Below, piece by piece: positions 16,501 through 49,012 of a DNA stretch of 64,000 nucleotides. Source of the DNA: Phorcus lineatus (taxonomy: Eukaryota > Mollusca > Gastropoda > Trochida > Trochidae); NCBI GenBank assembly GCA_921293015.1, contig OV121085.1, forward strand, positions 22,023,911 to 22,087,910. Direction: 5' to 3'. The position numbers and the translations under genes are program-made. A model generated the notes under the pieces. That model was not told where the DNA came from, did no database searches, and saw only the letters and a program-made list of their open reading frames with translations. Each line of letters opens with the position of its first letter. Position 1 is the stretch's first letter.

Positions 16501-19500
16501 CTAAAGTTTCTAAATTAAGTCTTAGCCTCCTTTAAATATGAGCAGGGCAGGTTGTATTCCCCTCAAAATTCCTTCACCTCTCTCCAGGAAACCAGTAATA
16601 CTAGGTTGCTCAAATTTTTTAAATGTCATCTGGTCTGGGTGGTAAATAAGGAGTGGTAGCAATTCATTTTAACTTATGCAGCCCTTTATAGAGAAATCAG
16701 CTTTCATATCAGCCAAATGTCTGTAACATCAATGATAAGAGCAGTTTGTAAAAGATCTAATTTGTCTGTTTTCAGTCATAGCCAGCCTTTGCTTAGTCTC
16801 CTATATCTGTATTTGGACTGTTTTTACCACTCCATGACTGTCTGGGTCAGCAAGTGAAAATATTTTGAGTGAAATTGCTTACCAAGTTTAGGGCTTCTAG
16901 CATCAATAATAACATAGTTGCTGCAGTTTTCACCTCCCCCTTTTATTCACTTCACAGAGTGACTGTAATAATTATAAACTGTTGGCATGTATTTAGATCA
17001 GCTGAATAATTACATCAGGCTGCTGGTAGGTCTGGTTTTAGCTGGGTGACAGTCCTGCGGATTGTAGGGAGGGAGCTATCTAAGTATTCTGATCAATTTA
17101 ATCCACAAAAACACGACTCGCTCAGGTGTAATAACCCAAGGAATAGTTATTGTCCTTCGCTGCACTGTGGAAAAGGGACATTGTATTCCGCGGCGTCCCA
17201 ATTCTTGTTAACGCAATATCTCATGACCCGTTGCACCCTAAGTCTTCGAATTAAGTCACAGCCTACATTTCCGGCTCATAACTTCTAAGTAATCATCTTA
17301 TTTTAATCAAAGTCAATATAATTAACTATTTTTACAATATATGTGTAAAATTTTGTAAAAGGTGAGTCTTGATTTAATATTTTGAAAATATCTATGTTAA
17401 AGTTTAGTTTTTGGGGAAAATGTCTTTGAACAAAACAGTGAAGACAATACTCATGTAAATGCAGCATTGTTTTGGCATTGATACTAAATGTACCTGCCAT
17501 CATATGCCATATTTCAGACTGCATAGAGTGCAACCACAGTTACAAGAGTGGATGCACATATCACAAAGTGGACTACACATTTGTGGAGGACAAGCCCATC
17601 CCGCCCCGCGCACAGCTTACACTCCCATCATGCCTTCTTCTCCAGACATCCGGGATCAAGATAACAGCAGAGGATATCAGCAATCTTGGTATATAATTAT
17701 TTTCCACTTCATGATATTTGATAAAAATTCTTCTTTAATCATGGATTGGCTGTGGGTTATATTCTGCAATAAAAATACTTGTATTTCATGTTAGACTAAA
17801 GGTTGAAACTGTAATTAATAAGTAAAAGTTACTCTGTGGCCCCTAATAAGCCCTAAATTCCTATTTTCATCTTCCTCTCCAAAAGCAAAAGGCCTAGAAA
17901 GCTGAAATGTTGTGTACAGACTCCTATACTAGTAAGGAATATAATTTATAGATTTGTTGACCCTGTGACCCCACCCTTAAAACCTATTTTCTCCAGAAGC
18001 AAAAGGTGTGGAAAGCTGAAATCTAATCTAATGAAATCTAAAGAGGTTTTTGATTTATATATACAGTGCTTGTGACCCCTTATAAGGAGGTTATGCTTTA
18101 AAATCCCATTTTCATCTTCCTCTTTGGATTCAAAAGGCCTAGAAAGTGTAAACCTAGTATACAGACTCCTTAGCCGATGGGGATATAATTTATAGATTGT
18201 CTCTGTGACCATTTATTTAATAAATTATTGATAACCCAATGAGCTACAGAGCCAATGGCTTTTTTGTAATTGTTTTGTGTACTGTGGTGTACAGGAGTGT
18301 TTGCCGGTGAAGTGATAGAGAAGAGGACAGAGTTCGGTCCCCTGAAAGGAAAGGTGGTGTCAGAGGACAACTACACATACACCAATAGCTTCACCTGGAA
18401 AGTGAGTAACTCTACGTACACGTCAAGTGCATGCAGTGCTTGAATAAATCATTGAATGTTTTAGATCTTCAGCAGTGCACAGTACCATGGTAGACTGATG
18501 GCTGAATGCTATTTGAATTCTTACTCTTACATCTTTATGTCAGTTGATGATAGACTGGTCCAGATAATCTAATTTGTGCACTGCCAATGGATTGAATGTT
18601 TCTGAATTTTACTTTTTTTTTAACATTGAGTGGTCGTAAGATGGTTGAATGTTTTCCTTCAGGTAACACTGGTTGATTGGCTAATGGTTGACTGTTTCAA
18701 TCTTCTACATGGAGTAGCAACAGGGGTTGAAAGATGGTTGACTCTGGGTGGTGGAAAGATGGTTGACTGTTTTGATAGCATACTGTGGGTAGCACTAGGT
18801 GAATGAATGACTGATGGTTGAGTGTTTCAGATCTTTTACTGGGGTCATCACCAGGTGAATGACTGACTGACTGATGGTTGAGTGTTTCAGATCTTCTACT
18901 GGGGTCAACACCAGGTGAATGACTGATGGTTGAGTGTTTCAGATCTTCTACTGGGGTCAGCACCAGGTGAATGACTGATGGTTGAGTGTTTCAGATCTTC
19001 TACTGGGGTCAACACCAGGTGAATGACTGATGGTTGAGTGTTTCAGATCTTCTACTGGGGTCAACACCAGGTGAATGACTGATGGTTGAGTGTTTCAGAT
19101 CTTCTACTGGGGTCAGCACCAGGTGAATGACTGATGGTTGAGTGTTTCAGATCTTCTACTGGGGTCAACACCAGGTGAATGACTGATGGTTGAGTGTTTC
19201 AGATCTTCTACTGGGGTCAGCACCAGGTGAATGACTGACTGATGGTTGAGTGTTTCAGATCTTCTACTGGGGTCAGCACCAGGTGAATGACTGATGGTTG
19301 AGTGTTTCAGATCTTCTACTGGGGTCAACACCAGGTGAATGACTGATGGTTGAGTGTTTCAGATCTTCTACTGGGGTCAGCACCAGGTCAATGACTGACT
19401 GATGGTTGAGTGTTTCAGATCTTCTACTGGGGTCAGCACCAGGTGAATGACTGATGGTTGAGTGTTTCAGATCTTCTACTGGGGTCAGCACCAGGTGAAT

Positions 19501-20882
19501 GACTGACTGATGGTTGAGTGTTTCAGATCTTCTACTGGGGTCAGCACCAGGTGGTGGATGTGGGTGATGAGGAGGAGTGCAACTGGCTGATCTATGTGAA
19601 GCCGGCGCCAAGTCTTCAGGAGCAGAATGTGGTGGTGTACCAGCGTGGGGAGCAGCTTTACTTTGTCACCAACAAGAGGGTGGAGCCTGGGACTGAGCTG
19701 CTCTTCTGGTTCTCCAAGGAATATGCCAAGCTCCTAGGTTTGTTACATCTTCTTTATTTGTCCATTCTGTCTTAAGATATTGAATCTGTAGCATCTCAAC
19801 TTTCAATACTGTAAGTTAACAGGCTTATATGAACAAAAAAAACTCTTCTCTCATAGATAGTACTAAAAAATATTCTAATGTTATCAAAGGGACATAAGAA
19901 AAAAATCTTGCCTCATCATCCCTGCAGGTTTGCCAGCTAGACCAAGCGCACTATGGCCATCTAACTGCCCATTCTGCCATGTGTGTAACCTGGTGTTCAG
20001 CGACTGGAAGTCTCTCAATAAGCACATGAAGTCAGAGCACCCTAACTCCAGCTCCCGCAAGTGGCCTTGTCATGTATGTAATCGAAGGTTCACCACATCC
20101 ACCAAGCTGAAGACTCACATGGTAGCACTGCACATGAGACTCAAACCCTTCACCTGCACACAGTGTGGCAAGAAGTTCTCGGATCAGAGCAACCTCCGTC
20201 AGCACATGAACATACACACAGGTACAATTAACAACAATTGTAAAATCTGAGCCCGACATATGTAAAATGCTGAATACATTAATGATCTATATATGTAATT
20301 TTGTACATTGATCCATTACAAATTTAACTTCATCAGTATGATAAAGTTTCAAGGATGATCATTTTTAACTTTGTTGCAGGTGAACGTAAGTTTAAATGCA
20401 CAATGTGCAGCAAGTCGTTCCGGCAGAAAGCACACCTCCAGTCGCACATGATAGTGCACACAGGGTCCGCTGGGCTGCAGTGTCGCTTCTGTGACGCCAA
20501 GATAGCACGGCCCTCAGACCTCAAGTCACATGAGCTGAAGCACACAAAGGAGAAGTGCTATCCTTGTGCCCTGTGCATCAAGGTCTTTTACAAGCTAGCC
20601 AACTACAAGAAACACATGCTCGTCCACAACAAGGAACGCAACTTTATGTGTCCAGACTGTGGTAAGCTGTTCTACTCAAAGTACCATGTGACACGGCACA
20701 TCAAGACATGCAAAGGGACAAAGGCTGGGGGTCGTGGGCTGGGACCAAGCGAGGACACTCTGTACAGCACCCTCGAGGGGGGTCCGGACGTCAACCTGGA
20801 TCTCACCTCCGAGGACACCATGATCCTCAGCACTACTACCAGCATCTGTGCACCCCTCAGAGCTCAGCGGCAGGACCGGTGA
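13532..20882 (+). CDS. PRDM4: PRDM4-like PR/SET domain and zinc-finger transcription factor, 9 coding exons, 1103 aa
   Basis: Exons: 13532-14741, 14856-14945, 15050-15640, 15765-15899, 17518-17688, 18295-18401, 19527-19737, 19928-20221, 20380-20882. All have GT-AG borders, phases agree, and the total is 3312 nt including TGA. An in-frame stop at 13517 precedes the ATG. Residues 1-675 are a long Ser/Thr/Gln-rich region, probably regulatory. A zinc knuckle (CIEC then CTYH) sits near residue 678 and is followed by the PR/SET domain (about 700-838: FGPLKGKV, IFYWGQ, ECNWLIYV, ELLFWFSKEYA). Seven zinc fingers follow (about 849-1070). The last is a C2HC finger ending KYHVTRHIKTCKG, which matches the end of vertebrate PRDM4. 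Vertebrate PRDM4 is about 800 aa; the extra length is N-terminal. PRDM4 is a nuclear DNA-binding regulator linked to cell-cycle control and recruits PRMT5 in mammals; here that role is inferred. The intron before exon 7 holds the splice-site minisatellite. Confidence 0.93.
16140..16312. mobile_element. SINE-like repeat, copy 1 (PRDM4 intron)
   Basis: A block with 'caatgcatagccacaatggt', 'ctgcaataatactagcagc' and 'gttaaac' followed by a 'cacctcacc' tail recurs at 36740-36878 with few differences. Non-coding. The shape (a unique body, then a short simple tail) and copy number suggest a SINE of molluscan type. Confidence 0.6.
17833..18205. repeat. Degenerate tandem triplication of about 120 bp in a PRDM4 intron
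   Basis: Three diverged units each contain 'tgtgacccc' (or 'ctgtggcccc'), a 'cctattttc' block, 'aaaaggcctagaaag' (or a variant), and 'gactcct' or similar. Each ends near 'atataatttatagatt'. Non-coding and intronic. Confidence 0.55.
18480..18830 (+). repeat. Eroded older units of the PRDM4 splice-site minisatellite
   Basis: Degenerate copies lead into the clean array: 'gatggttgactgttttgata', 'atggttgactgtttcaatct' followed by 'tctacatggagtagcaaca', and 'gtagcactaggtgaatga'. They keep the unit order (tggttga-gtttc, atcttctac-tggggt, caggtgaat) but have lost the exact AG and codon phase. This indicates an older phase of amplification. Confidence 0.55.
18791..19550 (+). repeat. 52-bp minisatellite duplicating the PRDM4 exon 7 splice acceptor and exon start
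   Basis: Each unit contains an intronic part (gaatgactgatggttgagtg then tttcag) and the first 24 bases of exon 7 (encoding IFYWGQHQ). A donor-like CAG|GTGAAT follows. Exon-like segments start at 18831, 18891, 18943, 18995, 19047, 19099, 19151, 19203, 19259, 19311, 19363, 19419, 19471, and finally 19527, which is the real exon. Spacing is 52 bp, or 56 or 60 where an extra 'gact' is inserted. Exon-part differences in units 2-13 are only CAA/CAG (both Gln). Unit 1 has TTT for TTC (silent) and CAT for CAG (His). Unit 11 has a damaged donor (GTCAAT). The real exon continues CAGGTGGTGG instead of CAGGTGAATG. Confidence 0.95.
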
Positions 20883-26196: not shown

Positions 26197-29100
26197 TCAG
26201 AGTTTGACCCACATGGACACTGTTGTGACAAGGGCAAGGATGAGAGCTACACTTGACGTCACTGATGATGCTCCTGCAATACGGCACTTCAGTGTGTGGT
26301 ATCTGCAATAGACAAGTTCCAACATGGAATCAAATTCTGAAAAACCCGGTGATTACTTGTAATCCCAATCATTGGATCAAGGCCTATCTATACCCTACTA
26401 ATTTGAAGTAAACAGCAGTGTGTGTAGCTACCGCTTTCTTCCTGCCTGTCACATTTGTGCTGCTCAAAACTTTACACAAGTAGTTTGAATGTTACAAAAC
26501 TTGACACAAGTAGTTTGAATGTTACAAAACTTGATAAAAGTAGTCACTATGATTTGTAAAATCAAAAATTTAATGTATCCTGTAAATTTATCAAAAATGT
26601 TTTAGTCTTTCAACTGTCATGTAAATGAAGCGCTAAAAAATAATTCACTCTTGTTCGTTAAGTAATTTTTAGAGATGACATCTCTCCAACTACTCATTTA
26701 ACCAAGTTTGACAAATAACTAGAACCTATATTAGCCTGTTGACAGTTACAGACATAACTATGAATTTATTTTTTCAGTCTTCATGGGAGCATGATTTGAA
26801 CAGTCACTACAACTTGACAATACATCTCTAAAACTAAACAAACTAGCTCCGTGAAGCTAGATAAAAATGTTAACTATAATCTGTGATGTGTTCATCTAGG
26901 AATGAATCTACGTCACATTTATATGTTTTGATGAATTTTGACAAAGTGCAATAGCTGTTTCTACAGTGTAGGAAACTCGGGTAAATGACTTCTCTTACGG
27001 TTCCTTTTGGCTGAACTACTATTTCATTTCATTTCTACTATAACAAAATTACAAATATTATTCTTAAATGCTTTTATTGAAACATTAGGAATGAACTGTC
27101 TGATTAAGTTAGTTACCCCTACAAGACATAACCTTAACCGTGATGGTCAAATGAACATTTGAGATTTTAATTTTAACCACAATGTATTTCTTGTAAACTT
27201 AATTTCTACAAAACAGTAGCTGGTATCCATGGCAACCCACCTGTTTGCTTCACTGTTCTGGAGTTTCCTCCACTCTTCTTCCATTGTCTGTCCGTCAAAG
27301 AACCACGCTAAGTCGTTGAAGGGGTACTCGTAACCTTGTCGACACTCGCACTTGTACCCTCCACGCACAAAGCGCTTGCCCTCCAGCGGAACACACTGCA
27401 ATACACACAATCAATCATTATGAATCTTCGTTGGGGGGTCTTGGTGCGCTCTGCCTTCTCTAGTTATTATTGTATTTATTAGCAAGATTTCACTGACACA
27501 AGTGGCAGTACTGTACAGTACTCTATTAAGGTGCTTAGAAGCAGAATCCTTAAGGCAGTTTGGATATTGAAGCAAGAGTCAGACGATGTATGTCTATGAA
27601 ATCATTAGCCTATTGCTGGTCCTGGCCTGATGAAGCTCATGACTGCAATTGTTGACACCAGAAAATAATCACTGTTGATTCACGTGATTATTCCGCCAGT
27701 GCCAAGAGCTGCAACCAGAGGTCTCTTCCTGTTGATCCAACAATTCACCTACAAACTGTCTCAAACAAGACTTGTGTTCCAGTAGGATTGCGCTAAGCAG
27801 TGCGAGTTATTGTAGCTGTACTCACATATTGGCTCTCGTAGTGGCACCGGGCGGTGTTCTTGAAGGAGTTGGCGCTGTGAAACTCTGCAGGACACTGGTT
27901 GATATCAAGGTAGTCCAGTTTCACATCAACTGACACCACGCCCCTGGGGATATAACATTTGTTAAAATATAAAACTATTAAACTTTAAGATTATTTTGTT
28001 TTCCTTTAATCATTTTTCACATGTTCATACTTTGAATTTTACAAAATGATCACATGGTTACAGTTTACATAGAGTTCATATCAAACAGATTATTTCAATT
28101 AGAAAGGAATAAAAATATTTCAAATCATCCAAAAGGAAGATGATTGAGAAGGCATGAAGATTCACTGACTTGAATTCGATCTCGGTCTTGAGACTGTTCT
28201 TGCCGAAGAAAGGTACGACGTAAGTGACAACCCAGTCCATGATCCGATCATCACATCTGAATTGAGGTCGCAGCCACTCCCCATCCTCATATCTAGGCGC
28301 TCGGTATGTCAGTGGATAGTACTCAAACCGGATCAAACTGGTTCCAGCTGGATTTGACCTAATCATAGGTTTAGCTGTAAATTTCTTCAGACCATACTGG
28401 TTAGTAGCCCATCTAGACTTGAGATCACGGAACCAGGCCTCATCAACATAGTATGAATCAAACCCGGCAAAGTCCATGGCTCTGAAGTTGTCCATACCAT
28501 CTCCTGTCACCTGCTCTCTGTAGGCATAAGGTCCAAAAAACTCTCTGGTGATTCCATCCACAAATCTGGGGTCAGTGTTGTTGATGGGTGGGGACATTCG
28601 GAATTTGTAACGATCGAAGAACACTCCACTACCGAGTATCCTGAAGTCACTCATCACATTTGAGATGACTTCACCAAAAATTTGGGTCTCATTGAGTCGA
28701 CGATCGCCCCTGAGATTACCAAACTCTTCATACTCATCTACATTTTGTAAGAAGTTGCTGAGGAAGTGAGCTAGCCTGAGTGCGGTTCGGCCCTGGGGTT
28801 CAAACATCTTCTCCATACCATACCCTGCATCTCCTGGAAGGTACAGCTCATGGGCCTGCTTCCCGTGACAGTTGCCAGGGTTTGTCTGATACTTCCTGTT
28901 CAAGATGTCCATCATTCGGTCAACTGCAATCTGGTCTACAGCGTCACGTTTATTCCTGTGCAGCTTCCTTGATGTGTCTCTCTTGTGACGGGCAATTAGC
29001 TTAGTCTTATCCTTTTTGAAGGTTTTCAGTCGTGCAATGAGATGGCGCTTCTGACGAGGTGATGGGCGAACACTCATTGCCTTTGGCAAAACCATCTCAA

Positions 29101-32100
29101 GGAAGTGAGTTTTCCTGGAGAGAACGGATCTCTTGTTCCTCTCCACAAATTCAGGCATCACGTTGGGGATTACCTGTCGCTCTGGAACAACAAAATAGTC
29201 AACAGTGAAGATTAAGGGCTTTCATTTGTTGAAAAAATTACAAGCATCCATCAAAATGACTTTCTCTGAATTGCTTGAATGATTGATCTGAAGCCCAACT
29301 CTGAATTGAACAAATGGATTTCTTTTAAAATTCCAATGGTAAGAGGAGAAAGGTGAAATAAAATTATCATATCAATTTCATAAACTATTCCTGAAATATT
29401 GTAATGGTTGACACAGTTTTGACAAGTGTACTGACCATCCACAGAGAGGCAATCAAAGCCAACATCATACTCCTCTCGAGCGGCCTCCTCCATCTCCCAA
29501 CCGAGGAAGGGTCCGTCGTGGAACCAAGGATAGTAGTAGCCAGGCTGGCACACACACTGGTACCCTCCCCGACGGAACCCATACCCTCCGATAGGCTCAC
29601 ACTGTAACCATAGCAACAAAGACCATCAGTAAAATTCAATTGATGATTTAAATTTTTCTAGAAATTACTTCTTTTTTAAGTGTATAAATAAAAAAGTTGT
29701 GGTGGATCATTTCCTTTTTATGCATCAAATAAAAATATCTAACAATAGCCTCTTTTTTTACAACCTTTCATTTTACAAACTGACAAAAAAACTTAACTCT
29801 CTTTCTGCTGAAACTTTAGGGTTACACCATTCAAACATTTTATCGGAAGAGGATGCTAGCTTTTATCCAACATTTATTGAAATACAGTTATTGAAAGTTT
29901 GAAATAGATTATTCTCAGATGCTGCGCAAGTCACATGTATCCAATACAGCTTGTTTTAATCAACTGATGGTGCTATTGTCTCAAACTAACCCTTGCAGGT
30001 AAACCTAACATAAAGCGCCATCATTTCAATCCAGTCACAAACATGAGTGCAATTACTAAGGAGTCTAAATGGCTTGCACAATATCATCGCTGGTCACATG
30101 ATCGACATACGAAGTTCCATGTAAATATTCAGTATTGAAGATTCTTTCACTGCTGGTATGGAACAAAGCTAACACTTTTGTCCAGTCTACGTAAACCTTA
30201 CTTTCATGGTCATGAACAAAATAAAATCTTAAGAAAATCATCAAAAGCAAAAGGCATATCTGCACTGCTGACTTGAATCTACAAAGTTTAATGATAACAT
30301 ATTCAGTGTTATTGTACTCTTTGAATAAAAGCCTACCAAAACCTATTAAGTTAGACATCAAACTTCTTTTGACCCTTTGTATTGAATAAATCTTAAATTC
30401 ATTAACAAAAGGCACATCTATACAGCTTTCTTGATGTATGAACAATGTTTCATAAATATAGATTTAACAGTTTTTGAGTTATAACAACTATCCATTGCTG
30501 AGCACAATAAAGTGTCCCACTTACCATAGTGGTGTTCTTGCACCGATCGGTGCCAGCGAAGTAGTTGGGAGCCGGATTTCCTTCTGCGATGGGACACTGA
30601 TTCATGTCAATTCGCTCGAACTCAATATCCATTGTGGACACAGCAACAAACCTGGAAAAGCAATCTTTTAACTTGACAGACATAACTTTGAGTCACAACA
30701 AATATCTATTCTGTAATAAAGAATCTAAACATAGATAAAGAGACAAAACTAAAGCAAACCAAAGCTGTTCCCTGAAATGTCATTGGTGTATGAAATAGCT
30801 ATGAACTAAGTTGCAAACATAAAGAGTAGTAGAGTTTGGCTAATGTTACAATACCGTATAGTTGGACTGTAGTAGAGTTTTTATTCTAGCAAAACTTGAT
30901 TCATATCTGAGATGATTGTTAATAAGCTATCTCTGCAGATCTATGCAGGTCACACACAGAAATCTCTCTGATGACTGATGAACTGTACTTTGCTAAGGAG
31001 AATTCGAGGAAATGCACCCATATGCTGAAGGATAGATTGTAGTTCTCTGTGTCTTCTATGTCTTCATCACACAAAGAACAACACTTCCTGGACATTTGAA
31101 CCAACCAGCAACATTCTGACATGGAGTGGTTTGAATTTAACGGGCCTCCATCCAGGAAGGTTTGGAGCGGAGCACATCAAACCTCCCTCCTGCTCCTGTA
31201 GGCCTCTTCACTCTAACAACTTTATAGCGTCTATGATTCATATATTCTTGTTAGCATTTCCTGTGGCTAATCATGTGCGCTAGTTGTCAGACATTGTTAC
31301 AGGGGAGACGACCTGTCTTCCTCAACCAGGCCAATTATACACAAGACTGACCCTAGCTTTACCCATGTACAACCCTTCACATACCAGGCCTTCAATGAAT
31401 ACTAACTTTATCACAAAAAGAAATGATGATTTTGGGCATATCAATCTGATGAAATATTTTATGTAGGCTCTCTACTTGATGTAAAAATGAAAATAGCCTT
31501 TGGATCTAGTTTTTTTTATATCATGTCAAAAAACATGGTTCAACAATAGAAGTTGGGAAGTAGATCTATCATGAAAATTAGCAAAAACAATTTTATTAAA
31601 GCAATGTTTGAAATTATCTGAGTTATTGCTTAGTGTTGCTTTAAGTTCTATTTCATCCATTAGCAGCTTTGCACTTGAAGAAATGATGACGTGTACAGTT
31701 ATTCACGTGACAGCTAATGATACATTCTCCCAACCTGAGAACACCAGTCACAAGATTGCAGTTTGCTAACAAGGGAGGTAATCAGCAGTTCTTGTAGTTG
31801 ATGGGGCGGAATATGATTGCAAGAATGATAAATCTATCCTTGTTAAAATTTTACAATCACATGAATTTTCCAAGTGGAATAACAGTTTCCTAGTCAGTAA
31901 TAGGTGCTACACTGAATCATACATATATGTTACTTATAAAAGTTGATTCCAGCATATAAATAAAACCATGATATATAGCCCGAGCTTGTCTGCATTAAAA
32001 AAATTGAGCATCCTTATGTCGCACATAGTTAATAGAAAGTTATACACTTTTAAGTATGCCTTTATCCAAATAGTTACAATATGAAACTTTGAGAAACTAA

Positions 32101-35100
32101 TAAAATCACACTTTCATACAATTTTTTCATTATCAAAACTGCCATTTGTACACAATTTAACTTTTTTTAAATCTGACATTTGAGTTCTAAAGAGAGTTTT
32201 AAACAAAACGTCATAAACATATTCATTTCTTCAAGGTAATGTATACATCAGGATATGACTTCAACTTTCTTTCAGATTACTTTAAACGCACTAGTGCACA
32301 CCAATATTTGGTAAACACAACGAATCCACACATACTGCATATCTGTTGATATTACTCTTGACCCTCACTCAAGTAATCTACCTCGTAAGTTATTTAACAA
32401 ATATTTACGTATTTAGGTAGTAAAGTTTATTTTTAAAGGCCGGAAGTATTTAATGCAACATAACTTTAAATCCGCATGAACTACAATATCGGAAATATTA
32501 AAATTTTGCTTATGAACAGAAAAGCGGAAACGGCAGCCGCTTTGGTCAATCTAAAAACGATGCTAATGCTGTGTTATTCAATCGTTTTCTTTACAACATT
32601 GCTTTCATAAAACATATTTCATTATTTGTTCTCAGTTCAGAGTTTAGGTAAATTCAATAGCTGCACATAATACTACTTCAGCCGCGTTCAACTATCCATA
32701 ATTTATCTGTTTTGTGCACAGCTAACCATAGATTTTTTCTATGTCCAAGCCAACAGCGGCTGTCTAAACTTTTTCATTGTTGATTGCAGGTCAATTGTAA
32801 AGAATTTTAAGCATTTCATTGCATTGATAGAAAGCTTAAATGAATGCATAAGTCCTCTTAAACCTTAAAATAGCCAATTTAAACCTTAAAAGCGTTCACT
32901 AGTGCCTTTAAAGTTTAGTGTGAACTTGCAAAATAATATTTATTGTTACATATCATCACTTATGAAACATTGTTTTTAGTCCTTATCTAAATTTTTTCCA
33001 ACAATAAGCTTGTTATTCTCGTTAGTAGTTAGTGATAAACACTTGGCGCTGTAGCTCAGTTCGAAGACTGGGTTCATTAACTCATCTCATCACTGAAGAT
33101 CCAGACATTTCATGATATGATAGCTATCACAGTGTCATGGTGTATAAACATACTGTATTATTAGTGGTTTCTTTACATGTTTTTAAAAGATTGATTTACA
33201 TTCCAAGTAAAAATATACAAGACTAAGTAAGCGATACATATCAATGAAAAGATAATGTATTGCAATAAATATATCGTCCAAACAAAACACCATAATACAT
33301 ATATCATCAGAAAAAGTATCACAATACACATAGCGTCAAAAAAGAATATCATAATATATATATATATTGTCAGATAAATTATCATATATATATATATATT
33401 GTCATATGAAATATCACAAAAGATATATCTTCAGATTAAATATCACAATACATATATCTTTAGATTATACTATGATATAACATTATAACTCTAATCATAC
33501 TAAAAGATGTCCAACAACGGCAGTTAATGTTTTCCTGCTTTACACTGCCTTATAAGTTTTTAATTGGCACTTCACTTTGGCTGCTGGGTGCAAAATAAAC
33601 AAAACATTTGCAGTGAAAACTATATCATCAAGCCAATGTGTTCCTTCTGATCAACAGTAACTTTCTCCATTAATCACATACAAATGGTTTTAATTCATAA
33701 CAAAATTGCAGTATTTCTGCAAATGAACCTCTGTAAAAGTTATGGAATTTCTAGGTCAGTGAGGGAGGTTAATTCCTTTTAAACTTTGGAAACTAACATT
33801 TCTGATATAGTTGTTACCTGTACAAGAACTGGACACTTAAAGAGCCACTCCGTGATATTATTTACCTTTGATACGAACCTAAATGTCATATGTCATAAAA
33901 ACAAAACATCTTAACGTTTTATGTCCAAAAGACATATATATGACAAATACTGGTTTTCCATGAAAATCTAAAAACAGCCTTATTAATGCACATAGGTGTA
34001 GATCTCACTTCCAATATACATGGATACTAGTAATATAACCTAATAAAAACTATCAACTCCTAACTGCCCTCCTTGCTGTTTAGATAAGTCTCCAAAATTA
34101 CGTTTGACTTATTGACGAGCCACTGTCCGGTTTTCATATTGTCATATTAAAAAACCAATAAGCCTTAAATGTGTCTTTTTGGTAACAGTCGATACTTCGT
34201 GATCAAATCACAACATTGATTAAGTTTGGCATATATATGACTCCAACAACTCACAGAGTGGCTCTTTAAAGCATAAACTGTTGTAACAATTTATTTAGTT
34301 AAATCATAAATGAAACACAGGCTCTGACAAAGATTTAGGAGGGGTTGTGATGTACGTACCTTCAACTTTCATATGACAGAAAGTTCTTAGATAGATAAAT
34401 TAATTAATAGACTGAAAACTTATATCTATTTCAAGAAAATTTGAGGAAAGCACAATTTGGGACTATCAAGATACTGTTTATGTGTTTTTATGTTTTTGGC
34501 AGTATATCAACCAGCATACATTCAATGGAAATATTTGATACAATGAATTAAAGGAGTACATAACATTGGTAAAGCATACTAAACTAAGACCTATTTTTGG
34601 TGTAGAAGCTTTATATAGATCACTATACAGATCTGATAACTCTTATTATTCCCCTTCTGCATCATTTTGAATGTCCAAATTAACCCAATTGCTGCCTAGA
34701 TGCCCAATTAGGATTGGTATTGGTTTGGGGTTAATCCGCTTTCTTCTCTAACTGTATCTTATGTCATTATTAGCTTTAGGAAAATTGTGAAACAAAAAGC
34801 AAATAGTTACCTGGGTCTCCTGAGATGAATGAAGGGTGAATAGCGAGGAAAGTACTCCACAACTGGTGAGGTGGCGCTGACAATCCACTTGTTGGAGCGG
34901 CCACAGTCAAAGTACGGTGCAGTGAACTGAACTGGCAGATAGTCATCCAGGGCTTCCTGTCCTGGCTGTGGGGGACCGAAGAAGGACGTGTCCTCAAATT
35001 CTTCTTTTGTGAACACACCTGTTGTGTTGGAATACTTGATGCCAACAGAGTATGTAAACTTCCTTAACGAATCTTTATCTCCGGTTATATCTGGCATCCA

Positions 35101-35760
35101 GGGTTTATACCATGGATTTGTCTTGTAGGCAGAATTGGTGTAATTAGAACCACGGCCAGCACCATAATCGTGGATATCCATGGTGTTGTTAGTGGGTTCT
35201 CTCAGGAAGTTAGTGGGTTCGTTGTAGTCATCTGCTCTCCATGCTCTTGGACCATAGAGGGGAAGTGTTTTGTTGAACTCATAAGTGACAAACCAATTGG
35301 GGTAGCTGCAGTTGGTGTCAAAATAGAGCGCAGAACCGTTGATGAAGCCAGGGTTTGCAGACACATCAGCTGCTGCGGACATGTAATAGTACATGAGACC
35401 TGGCTGATTGAGGAAGTCATAGGTGTGGTTAAGCTTTTGATATATGAAGCTGTAAAAGAAGGCCCTGTTGAGCGCCATGTTGTGCATATGCAACATGGAT
35501 GATCTGTTGTAGTAGATGACCGTACTTAGAAGCATATTGTACCTGGGGATCTGGGCCAGCACTTCCTTTGGCAAGGTAAGCTGCTCCGCCGGCTTGGACC
35601 GGCAGTTCTCTGCCGTGACTTCTGAGAATCGGTCATTGATAAAGTCAAATCTGTCTGGTCTCATCCAAGAAAAGGGGGAATCGGTCTCCGCTGGATTAAC
35701 CCATGTCACCGTACACAGGGCCAGGACGCCAACCAACAACACCTGTAGTAACGTCGGCAT
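26197..35760 (-). CDS. Secreted/GPI-anchored protein with two GPR158-type Cache-EGF units, 7 exons, 877 aa
   Basis: Exons on the minus strand: 35760-34811, 30651-30525, 29601-29436, 29181-28170, 27943-27826, 27395-27241, 26302-26197. Borders are GT-AG, phases agree, and the total is 2634 nt with stop. Residues 1-25 form a signal peptide (MPTLLQVLLVGVLALCTVTW). Unit 1 has a Cache-like domain (about 40-355, with YFDCGRSNKWIVSATSP) and an EGF-like exon (360-414, GFRRGGYQCVCQPGYYYP). A basic linker (415-494) holds four R-x-K-R sites. Unit 2 repeats the plan: Cache (about 500-790) and EGF (792-842, RFVRGGYKCECRQGYEYP). These resemble the extracellular part of GPR158/GPR179 (metabotropic glycine receptor family). 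No seven-helix region follows. The last exon encodes a small-residue patch (AGASS) and a hydrophobic end (VALILALVTTVSMWVKL), like a GPI signal. Many N-x-S/T sites occur, mostly in unit 1. Ligand binding is unproven. Confidence 0.85.
26465..26544. repeat. 30-bp tandem repeat, about 2.7 copies (intron)
   Basis: The unit is 'caaaacttgacacaagtagt' plus 'ttgaatgtta'. The three copies differ at a few bases and the last is partial. Confidence 0.75.
28946..29140 (-). other. Furin-type cleavage linker between the two Cache-EGF units
   Basis: The coding stretch reads RNKR|S, RQKR|H, RHKR|D and RNKR|D, with cuts predicted after residues 432, 460, 482 and 493. R-x-K/R-R is the proprotein-convertase consensus. 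The linker is otherwise basic and without Cys, so it looks exposed. Cleavage is predicted, not shown. Confidence 0.7.
33284..33475. repeat. Degenerate AT-rich minisatellite, unit about 30-36 bp
   Basis: About six units of the form 'atatca-c/taataca-tatat-c-tcaga--aa'. Two contain pure (TA)n runs (about 33353-33367 and 33383-33399). The unit is best seen as repeats of 'tatcacaatacatatat' with a 'tcag' block. Confidence 0.6.
33837..34269. mobile_element. MITE with 19-bp terminal inverted repeats, copy 2
   Basis: Same ends as the element at 5244-5722 (TTAAAGAGCCACTCCGTGA and its inverse with one mismatch) and the same internal order. 433 bp, intronic, non-coding. Confidence 0.75.
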
Positions 35761-35913
35761 CTTCACCTGTGTTCTCACACCTGTTTCAGGTCCACATTCG
35801 GTAAATTATATTCATAAACAAAGTCTTTCCGCGTCGTCTTCACCTTACCTGGATTCAAAATGGCGGACGACACTCACCTTATTCAAATGAGTGACGCTTC
35901 GTCGCAGGGTCAG
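35761..35913. promoter_or_regulatory. Divergent promoter/5' region with YY1-like ATGGCGG and opposing splice donors
   Basis: Starts on the two strands would be 100 bp apart. On the minus strand a donor (CCAG|GTAAGG) just below 35850 and acceptors (ACAG) near 35780 and 35767 allow a short 5' UTR intron of about 70-80 nt. On the plus strand a donor (CAG|GTAAGC) follows 35913. The sequence AAAATGGCGGAC fits both a start codon and a YY1-type promoter site. Confidence 0.45.
35860..35913 (+). CDS. Possible first coding exon of a divergent gene (18 codons), uncertain
   Basis: ATG in a good context (CAAAATGG) opens 18 codons (MADDTHLIQMSDASSQGQ) that end exactly at a strong donor CAGGTAAGC. Acid- and Ser-rich first exons of this style are common in nuclear proteins. 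I could not find the next exon within the window, so the gene cannot be named. The alternative is that the ATGGCGG is only a YY1 promoter site of the minus-strand gene. Confidence 0.35.
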
Positions 35914-46293: not shown

Positions 46294-46337
46294 TCTTAAT
46301 ATTCCTGGCTTGGTACGTTAATAGTTAATACAAGAAG

Positions 46338-47414
46338 ATGTCTGAAGGGGACGTAAAACCGAAGCGTAAAGGTGCTGGGGCGAAGATGCCTGAGATTATG
46401 GAGGCTTTGAGAGGTTCTCCCATGGAAAAATTGAGCGCCATTAGTCTGTCCCCGGCGTTTGGCAAGGCAGACGGGGCTGTGAGAGAAGAGACAGTTTCTG
46501 AAATTGAAGCGGAATGTGCGACTTTGGAACTGACTCTTCAACGCCTAAAACTACAGGACAGACGGCGCGACTTACAGTTGCAGATAGATGGACTTAAAGC
46601 TTCTACACAAAACACGACAATGGACAGGGTCAACGAAAATCAACATGGCGGCGATATCCAACATGGCGGATATCGACAAGGTCAACAGACATTTCGTCGA
46701 GGAATTGATACACAACGAGGTAGCGAACGCAATATCCCTCCAAAACGTAAGATCTCTGATTATTTGTGGATAGACTCTCTCGATGTAGACACGGGCACGG
46801 TCGAGATTGCCGAGGGGATTACTTTGGGAATGAACACAAGGTCACGTGAAAAATTGAGCAAAATCACCATCGACATGTGGAATTATGCAAGCATGGGGAT
46901 TCTTCAGGATATGATTGACAAGGGAGAGTTGAATACGACAGGGATTAGTGATTATCTGAGATACGTGAGAAATGTGTGTAGGTTATCTTCAAAATATGTG
47001 TGGGGTAGTGTTCTCTTGTATGATCAAGAATACAGAGATTTGCAGCACCGTGATCAATTCCGATGGGGAACCCCATTACAGGATATTCGCGAATTTCAAC
47101 TAGTCCCAAAACCAAACTCCAATACAGCGAGGGCATTGAAGGAGATGGATAGGTCTAACATTAGTGACAGTGTACAGAAAGGCGCAAACAGTCACCATGG
47201 CAACAGATGGAGGGGCCCCTTTACCGCGGATGGAATGGAAATTTGTCGACGCTACAATTTCGGCAGTTGTTTCCGAGGGGATCAGTGTAAACTTGTACAT
47301 GCATGTTCCGTGTGTACGAGAAGGGGTCATACGATGCAGGAGCATAATGGGACTGACACACAGCCCAGCAGAGCGAACGACTACAATGGTTTGCACCAGT
47401 CAAAAAACTTTTAA
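46338..47414 (+). CDS. Gag-like ORF1 with C-terminal CCCH and CCHH zinc-binding motifs, 358 aa
   Basis: ATG at 46338 follows repeat A1. Residues about 55-85 form a coiled-coil-like helix (EIEAECATLELTLQRLKLQD). The middle part (about 140-270) has no motif I recognise. Near residue 299 is a CCCH finger (CRRYNFGSCFRGDQCKLVH: C-x7-C-x5-C-x3-H), followed at once by CSVCTRRGHTMQEH (C-x2-C-x4-H-x4-H). Nucleic-acid-binding Cys/His motifs at the C-terminus are usual for Gag. A similar single CCCH-type end is seen in many Gag-like proteins of DIRS/Ngaro-type elements, from general family knowledge. The stop TAA lies 8 bp before ORF2, which is in another frame, so ORF2 may need reinitiation or a frameshift. 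Expected role: RNA packaging and particle assembly. Confidence 0.8.
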   Translation: MSEGDVKPKRKGAGAKMPEIMEALRGSPMEKLSAISLSPAFGKADGAVREETVSEIEAECATLELTLQRLKLQDRRRDLQLQIDGLKASTQNTTMDRVNENQHGGDIQHGGYRQGQQTFRRGIDTQRGSERNIPPKRKISDYLWIDSLDVDTGTVEIAEGITLGMNTRSREKLSKITIDMWNYASMGILQDMIDKGELNTTGISDYLRYVRNVCRLSSKYVWGSVLLYDQEYRDLQHRDQFRWGTPLQDIREFQLVPKPNSNTARALKEMDRSNISDSVQKGANSHHGNRWRGPFTADGMEICRRYNFGSCFRGDQCKLVHACSVCTRRGHTMQEHNGTDTQPSRANDYNGLHQSKNF

Positions 47415-47422
47415 CGGAGACG

Positions 47423-49012
47423 ATGTGTTATGATTCGTGGCAGGCCCTCTTACCACGCAATGACGTTGATCGGGACTATATTTTGACAGGTGTAAAAGAA
47501 GGGTTTAAATTAGCTGACGTGTCTACTGTTGTGATCGAAGATGTTTTTGTTTCAAATCACAGATCAGTAGAAAATCATAAAGTAGCGACCGAAAAACAGA
47601 TAAAAGAAGAGTTAGAAGCTGGAAATTATGAAATTTCAAAGACAAAACCAAAGATAGTAAGTGCGATGGGGGCAATTCCAAAGTCTGATCAGAAAATCAG
47701 ACTTATTCATGATGGTAGTATTCCCAGCAGCAATGGAATGAACAGTTTCATGAACAATTGTGACTGTGAATACATGGATATAAGAGAAGCAATGAAGCAC
47801 ATAAAACCAGGAAGTGTTCTAGCAAAAGTAGACTTAAAACATGCATACAGATCCGTCCCCATACACCCAAGTAATTATAACTTAACAGGGCTAGCCTGGC
47901 AATTTGAGAATGGTGATTTTGTGTATATGTATGATAGGAAGCTTCCATTTGGTGCATCCAAGAGCCCCCAGATTTTTCAGACTCTAAGTTCAGCTGTTTG
48001 TAGAATTATGAAAGTGAGCTTTGGTTTTACAGTTATTGCATATTTAGATGACTTTTTGGTGATTTCAGATAGTGTCGAAATGTGTAACCATGCTCTTGGA
48101 AAACTTATAGAGGTACTGCGGGCCCTGGGTTTTATGATTAATTGGAACAAAGTTGAAGGTCCAAGTCAGAGTCTTCTTTTTCTCGGAGTTGTTATCAACA
48201 CTTGTGACTGTACTCTAGCCTTACCTATGGAAAAGGTTAAAGACTTGCGACAATTATTGGACCTCTTTGCAAATCGAAAGAGAGCCAGTAAACGCCAGAT
48301 TGAAAGCCTGATTGGGAAGCTCAACTGGGCCTGTCAGGTGATTCAAGGGGGGAGATCGTTCCTGAGAAGACTAATTGACTTGAAAACTACCCTACGTGCA
48401 GGACAAGATAAAGTGCGGTTAACAGATGATTTTAGGAAGGACATCACTTGGTGGAGATCTTGTCTTGAAGTGTTTAATGGTTCAAAGCAATTCCTGGATA
48501 AACGTCCAATACGTACTGTTGAGACAGACGCTTCTTCTAAAGGTGCTGGTGCTTATTACATGGGAGATTTCTTTTATGTGAATTGGCAATGTGACCTGCC
48601 AGAGGTGAGTGAAATGCACATAAACACTAAAGAGTGTTTGGCCATAGTGTTATCTGCTATCAGATGGTCAGGTGCATGGCAAAATAAGCAAATTATTGTT
48701 AAAACTGATAACATGTTTGCTAAAGCCATAATTAACAAGGGTTCCTGCAAACTACCCTTTGTTATGCAATATTTACGTTACTTGTGTTGGCTACAGGCTG
48801 TTTTTAATTTCTCAATAAAAGCAGAGTACATTCCAGGTCTACAGAACAAGATAGCAGATGCTGCGTCCAGAATGCATGAAAATGACAGTTTACAAAGACT
48901 ATATGAACTCATTCCAAGTTTATCTCTGATTGAATTCTCACGCCGCAATCTAGAGAACTTCATGTCGCGTTCTTTCATTAACTGCAGATGGGGGAATGAT
49001 GTGCAAGTTTAA
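47423..49012 (+). CDS. Reverse transcriptase-RNase H of DIRS/Ngaro type, 529 aa
   Basis: Uninterrupted frame. RT motifs in order: IRLIHDGS (about residue 93), VLAKVDLKHAYRSVPIHP (motif A, about 132), KLPFGASKSPQIFQ (motif B, about 173), AYLDDFLVISD (active site YLDD, about 208), LGFMINWNK and FLGVVI (about 236-257). RNase H follows: VETDASSKGAGAY (about 368), KECLAIVLSAI (catalytic Glu), VKTDNMFAKAIINKG, and EYIPGLQNKIADAASR (last Asp). All catalytic acids appear present. There is no protease, integrase, methyltransferase or tyrosine recombinase in this frame or after it. Likely role: copying element RNA to DNA in the cytoplasm or particle. The style (YLDD, DNxxAxxxIN, IPGxxNxxAD) fits DIRS-like rather than Ty3 or BEL types. 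Confidence 0.93.
   Translation: MCYDSWQALLPRNDVDRDYILTGVKEGFKLADVSTVVIEDVFVSNHRSVENHKVATEKQIKEELEAGNYEISKTKPKIVSAMGAIPKSDQKIRLIHDGSIPSSNGMNSFMNNCDCEYMDIREAMKHIKPGSVLAKVDLKHAYRSVPIHPSNYNLTGLAWQFENGDFVYMYDRKLPFGASKSPQIFQTLSSAVCRIMKVSFGFTVIAYLDDFLVISDSVEMCNHALGKLIEVLRALGFMINWNKVEGPSQSLLFLGVVINTCDCTLALPMEKVKDLRQLLDLFANRKRASKRQIESLIGKLNWACQVIQGGRSFLRRLIDLKTTLRAGQDKVRLTDDFRKDITWWRSCLEVFNGSKQFLDKRPIRTVETDASSKGAGAYYMGDFFYVNWQCDLPEVSEMHINTKECLAIVLSAIRWSGAWQNKQIIVKTDNMFAKAIINKGSCKLPFVMQYLRYLCWLQAVFNFSIKAEYIPGLQNKIADAASRMHENDSLQRLYELIPSLSLIEFSRRNLENFMSRSFINCRWGNDVQV

Follow-up and report, generated by a model that had tools for sequence, protein, structure and literature searches.

How does an intron come to contain thirteen copies of its own 3' splice site, each followed by the opening bases of the exon that the site serves, and does the spliceosome read these copies or pass over them? 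The question is raised by the PRDM4 gene of the gastropod Phorcus lineatus, in which such an array occupies the intron between exons 6 and 7. The gene lies in a 64,000-nucleotide stretch of contig OV121085.1 (positions 22,023,911 to 22,087,910, forward strand), which is referred to below as the window and is numbered from its first base. The most probable answer (roughly 0.7) is that the array is an intronic minisatellite, which would have arisen when the intron 6/exon 7 boundary was duplicated in tandem, and would since have been re-amplified and mostly tolerated as a passenger.

The assignment of the gene to PRDM4, made in an initial annotation of this DNA, holds on sequence comparison. The best PDB match of the PR domain taken together with the region preceding it is PRDM4 (3db5; 90.9 bits, with PRDM1 at 75.9), while for the PR domain alone the PRDM1 and PRDM4 structures tie. 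The PR domain also matches Pfam PF21549 and SET, and C2H2 fingers were matched, as expected of PRDM4. According to exon borders read by eye from the sequence, the PR domain is divided in phase 0 between exons 6 and 7, and exon 7 is flanked by an upstream intron of 1,125 bases and a downstream intron of 190 bases.

Immediately upstream of exon 7, a pattern count finds TTTCAGATCTT 14 times, which corresponds to 13 decoys plus the true exon start at 19527. The acceptor context TTTCAG/ATCTT (a slash marks the splice position here and below) likewise occurs 14 times, with exon-like starts running from 18831 to 19527. The initial annotation had described 13 tandem units, each with TTTCAG and the first 24 exon bases, and the count bears this out. 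The decoys begin at 18831, 18891, 18943, 18995, 19047, 19099, 19151, 19203, 19259, 19311, 19363, 19419, and 19471, so that successive starts, the true one included, are spaced by 60, 52 (six times), 56, 52, 52, 56, 52, and 56 bases. In units 2–13 the 24 exon bases read ATCTTCTACTGGGGTCARCACCAG and vary solely between CAA and CAG at one codon, as had been reported; unit 1 deviates further (TTT for TTC, and CAT for CAG or CAA). The last 23 intron bases are identical in all 14 acceptors. A donor-like CAG/GTGAAT, previously attributed to every unit, follows the 24-base piece in 12 of the 13, the exception being unit 11 with CAG/GTCAAT. Neighbouring pieces lie 28–36 nt apart, and skipping one unit leaves 80–88 nt, in agreement with the earlier figures of 28–36 and at least 80 nt.

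Tandem Repeats Finder (TRF) describes the array with a period of 52, 13.0 copies, 95% matches, and a score of 1223 (the next-best array in the window scores 139); these head-to-tail, near-identical units, of a length within the 10–100 bp range of such arrays, make it a minisatellite. Three-unit blocks (CAA, CAG, CAG plus 4 extra bases) recur at units 7–9 and 10–12, and TRF also reports a period of 160, which together suggest that whole blocks were duplicated, through slippage or unequal exchange. When the entire genome (957.8 Mb in 74 contigs) was searched with 75 bases of the array, 15 matches were listed, all in a single cluster (22042668-22043463) and none elsewhere; the search scores its best candidates only and passes over very frequent words. 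The array rests on a single assembly, and the real one could be shorter, longer, or absent. Such an artefact is very improbable, however, given that the unit variants (CAA or CAG, the 4 extra bases CTGA, and GTC) stand in a non-trivial arrangement that simple errors would not give, that diverged copies lie upstream, beyond what such errors make, and that the contig is of chromosome size (59.8 Mb).

The array had been placed at 18791..19550, an interval that is too short, as decayed copies reach back to about 18436. In local alignment to the tandem consensus, the 399 bases from 18402 to 18800 score 195. By comparison, 300 dinucleotide shuffles average 50 and never exceed 84, and none of 620 other overlapping pieces of this length, drawn from both strands of the window, scores above 75. 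For the stretch taken as a whole, chance is thereby ruled out as the source of the similarity. Taken alone, the exon-derived 24 bases reach a top-three sum of 70 in this stretch (maximum of 310 controls, 51), and the intron-derived 28 bases reach 88 (maximum of 310 controls, 70). Wrap-around alignment to the unit divides the stretch into nine pieces. Three are individually significant (18436-18488, 18673-18723, and 18751-18800; 0 of 500 shuffles each) and two are suggestive (18583-18625, 5 of 500; 18489-18538, 12 of 500), whereas in the first 34 bases, 18402-18435, no copy of the unit is detectable (its score is equalled or exceeded by 293 of 500 shuffles). An AG is kept at the acceptor place in about two of the eight pieces between 18436 and 18800, by a by-eye reading of the alignment.

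Divergence from the consensus (p) falls towards the exon, from 0.26–0.33 (18402-18625) through 0.14–0.21 (18626-18800) to 0–0.04 (18801-19550). The three significant old units diverge by 0.31, 0.14, and 0.19, and the estimate for the oldest pieces is about 0.3–0.44 substitutions per site (Jukes-Cantor). Because gaps are excluded from these values and the alignment forces the unit register, they probably understate the true divergence. This gradient suggests that the intron has lengthened through successive tandem duplications over its own 3' end. Much of the intron sequence 5' of the array, as far as about 18436, descends from the array unit, and this tips the balance towards growth that was long-lived and tolerated. 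The process looks old, and long tolerance of the array is suggested by the decayed copies.

The proposed course of this growth is as follows. A single founding junction, perhaps one joining GGTG of the intron to CAGGTG of exon codons 8–9, would have created the first unit. The true exon start, held by selection at the protein level, would always remain the last unit and seed fresh copies. Since it stays last, every new copy would lengthen the intron by about 52 bases and leave behind a decoy made up of the old acceptor, 24 bases of exon, and a hybrid donor. Units left behind would decay, and the spliceosome would mostly skip them. The absence of a detectable copy in the donor-proximal 34 bases indicates that the intron may have been short before its expansion, like five of the eight introns between the PRDM4 junctions analysed, which measure 104–190 bases.

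Could the decoys nevertheless serve as exons? Microexons are defined as exons of 27 nt or less, a range within which the 24-nt pieces fall (PMC8378409). The pieces had been put forward as in-frame micro-exon candidates with both splice sites, and for the most part this stands: all 13 are 24 bases long, in phase 0, and free of stops, and their acceptors match the true one over 23 bases, whereas one donor differs. As cassettes, 0 to 6 of them, with at least one unit skipped between uses, would add IFYWGQHQ in frame to the PR domain. The 80–88-base introns left by skipping one unit would allow this, and no more than six units could be included given a minimum intron of 80 bases; twelve of the 13 donors, moreover, have a score of 4.66. 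On the other hand, both the frame and the splice signals are inherited from the exon and so say nothing about selection. In the nine upstream pieces, bases identical to the consensus number 131 of 182 in the exon-derived part versus 155 of 199 in the intron-derived part (Fisher p=0.19); for the three significant old units the counts are 55 of 70 versus 62 of 79 (p=1.0). By this comparison, selection preserving the coding piece was not detected in the decayed upstream pieces. As the exon part has decayed as much as the intron part, long use of the units as coding micro-exons is argued against, and long-standing coding selection on them is rejected, though recent use may have occurred. Repeats of eight residues in the PR/SET core would also be expected to disturb the fold. 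Micro-exon cassettes are accordingly a distinctly improbable use of the array. The three options first offered for it (micro-exons, decoys, or a neutral array) remain a fair set, in which coding use has left no sign in the comparison above.

A decoy acceptor that is used without further splicing has a different consequence, as the reading frame then meets a stop at the 12th codon in all 13 cases, after IFYWGQHQVND in 12 of them and IFYWGHHQVND in unit 1. The array might on this basis act as a brake, in which 18401 is spliced to a decoy acceptor, the transcript runs on to the stop and decays, and PRDM4 output falls with unit number. The identity of the acceptors over the last 23 intron bases would favour such splicing, as would the branch-point-like CTGAT (A at −17) that precedes each of the three units examined, and transcription of the decoys before the true site. 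A brake is nonetheless unlikely, as the decayed copies suggest long tolerance of the array and the available exon-definition data favour the acceptor nearest the exon. In human genes, near-equal acceptors show exon-definition behaviour where the upstream intron is long and the downstream one short, and the authors conclude that exon definition favours whichever site is nearest across the exon (PMC9225289). An equally doubtful, more general version would make the array a splice rheostat, in which 14 near-identical acceptors compete, use of a decoy leads either to decay or to eight-residue cassettes, and unit number sets PRDM4 output or isoform. Recursive splicing was also rejected, since ATC rather than GT follows the acceptors and the CAG/GT within the unit lacks a preceding pyrimidine tract.

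On the reading as a tolerated passenger, the decoys would mostly be skipped. Exon 7 has a long upstream and a short downstream intron, an arrangement that under exon definition favours the acceptor nearest the true exon; exons of 24 bases are poorly defined, and introns of 28–36 bases are too short for splicing. The last acceptor is thus most likely the one used, and it is this predicted skipping that would make the array mostly a passenger.

Several observations pull the other way. The donor score of the decoys (4.66 in 12 of 13 units), calculated from human base frequencies, is above six of the eight PRDM4 donors read by eye (range −1.67 to 6.47) and far exceeds that of exon 7's own donor (0.11). 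By the same measure, scores of at least 4.6 are reached by about 0.9% of the 3,695 plus-strand GT sites of the window, decoys counted. The decoys are transcribed ahead of the true acceptor and are locally near-identical to it. Alternative acceptors, when pooled, favour the upstream site, a lean that is reduced for exons with long introns on both sides (PMC9225289). As to the older copies, the wrap-around alignment inflates identity and itself sets the register, and four of the nine upstream pieces, including the 34 bases adjoining the donor, are not significant singly (500 shuffles), so the continuity of the old array is judged from the whole stretch.

Within PRDM4, 17 splice junctions were tested for local copies, and only that of intron 6 and exon 7 exceeds the controls. 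The window and ten further 10-kb pieces of this genome (164 kb in all) yielded 27 TRF rows, seven of them with a period of 20–200 and at least three copies. Manual grouping of overlaps reduces these seven rows to four distinct arrays, of which only the PRDM4 array has both splice-like sites; the filter applied was ad hoc (it required, at a multiple of three, one site resembling an acceptor and one resembling a donor) and the sample is small.

Repeated exon-like pieces are also a feature of tandem exon duplication. The PRDM4 array shares short, in-frame, exon-like pieces with microexons (PMC8378409), but unlike either of these systems it copies only the first 24 of the 211 exon bases. Tandem genomic duplication is among the recognised ways in which introns are gained (PMC3443670). 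The closest known precedent is the potato RdRp gene, in which one tandem duplication across an intron-exon boundary gave rise to a new intron whose donor derives from exonic sequence (PMC4974935). Like that duplication, the PRDM4 unit carries the intron end, the acceptor, a putative branch site, the exon start, and a donor from formerly exonic sequence. The potato case is a single duplication with a spliced intron backed by 106 RNA reads (PMC4974935), whereas the PRDM4 array is known from its sequence, comprises 13 fresh and several decayed copies, and has gaps between neighbours that are too short for introns. In the exon-only duplication model, a CAG/GT within the duplicated exon piece is likewise a potential donor; in PRDM4, in contrast, the boundary is duplicated and an existing intron grows. 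Short direct repeats near intron borders, described in a 2025 paper, are of 4–30 bp (PMC11782384). Minisatellites in introns of Caenorhabditis elegans (CeRep25B) have been linked to complex splicing (PMC4039745), and, together with the variable number tandem repeat in TERT intron 6 (PMC11830802), they resemble the PRDM4 array as intronic tandem arrays that possibly affect splicing. Unlike the PRDM4 units, the units of these two arrays are not described, in the parts of those papers available, as splice-boundary copies with coding sequence. An array of copied 3' boundaries was not found among the literature matches listed, which lie mostly outside subscription journals.

Coordinates of the PRDM4 features discussed above (window numbering)
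Feature	Position	Strand	Description
PRDM4 exon 6	18295..18401	+	First half of PR domain; ends ...SFTWK, phase 0
Exon 6 donor AAA/GTGAGT	after 18401	+	Score 5.0
Donor-proximal intron, 34 bases	18402..18435	+	No detectable unit copy
Decayed older copies of acceptor and exon-start unit (probable)	18436..18800	+	
Fresh minisatellite	18801..19526	+	13 decoy units, with the true intron end at its 3' end; divergence from consensus 0–4%
Unit 1	18831..18854	+	Most diverged fresh 24-base candidate; IFYWGHHQ
Unit 11	19363..19386	+	Sole CAG/GTCAAT unit; donor score 0.75 vs 4.66
Last decoy micro-exon candidate	19471..19494	+	IFYWGQHQ
First 24 bases of exon 7	from 19527	+	Terminal unit of the array
PRDM4 exon 7	19527..19737	+	Second half of PR domain; starts IFYWGQHQVVDVGDEEECNW..., 211 bases
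Exon 7 donor TAG/GTTTGT	19738	+	Weak; score 0.11, below the decoy donors upstream

The preceding PRDM4 intron (17689-18294) contains a diverged direct duplication of about 160 bp (17814-17970 and 18053-18210), which looks unrelated to the 52-bp unit and does not lie at an exon edge. Elsewhere in the window, long open frames on the minus strand at 28076-35805 resemble the outer part of a GPR158-like receptor; the two pieces of this region that were scanned gave no Pfam match. AT-rich arrays of 29–32-bp units, reported by TRF in overlapping registers, occupy 33264-33467, and two retroelement open frames lie at 46329-49012, the second of which matches the reverse transcriptase family PF00078.

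The choice among equal 3' splice sites has been studied with engineered duplicates. The PRDM4 array offers a natural series, with 14 locally near-identical acceptors that differ chiefly in position, and on it first-come choice and exon definition could be tested against each other. The decayed copies, in turn, seem to document the growth of an intron through copying of its 3' boundary. If this is true, repeated self-copying of a 3' boundary, with the older copies decaying, would be a general way for introns to lengthen.

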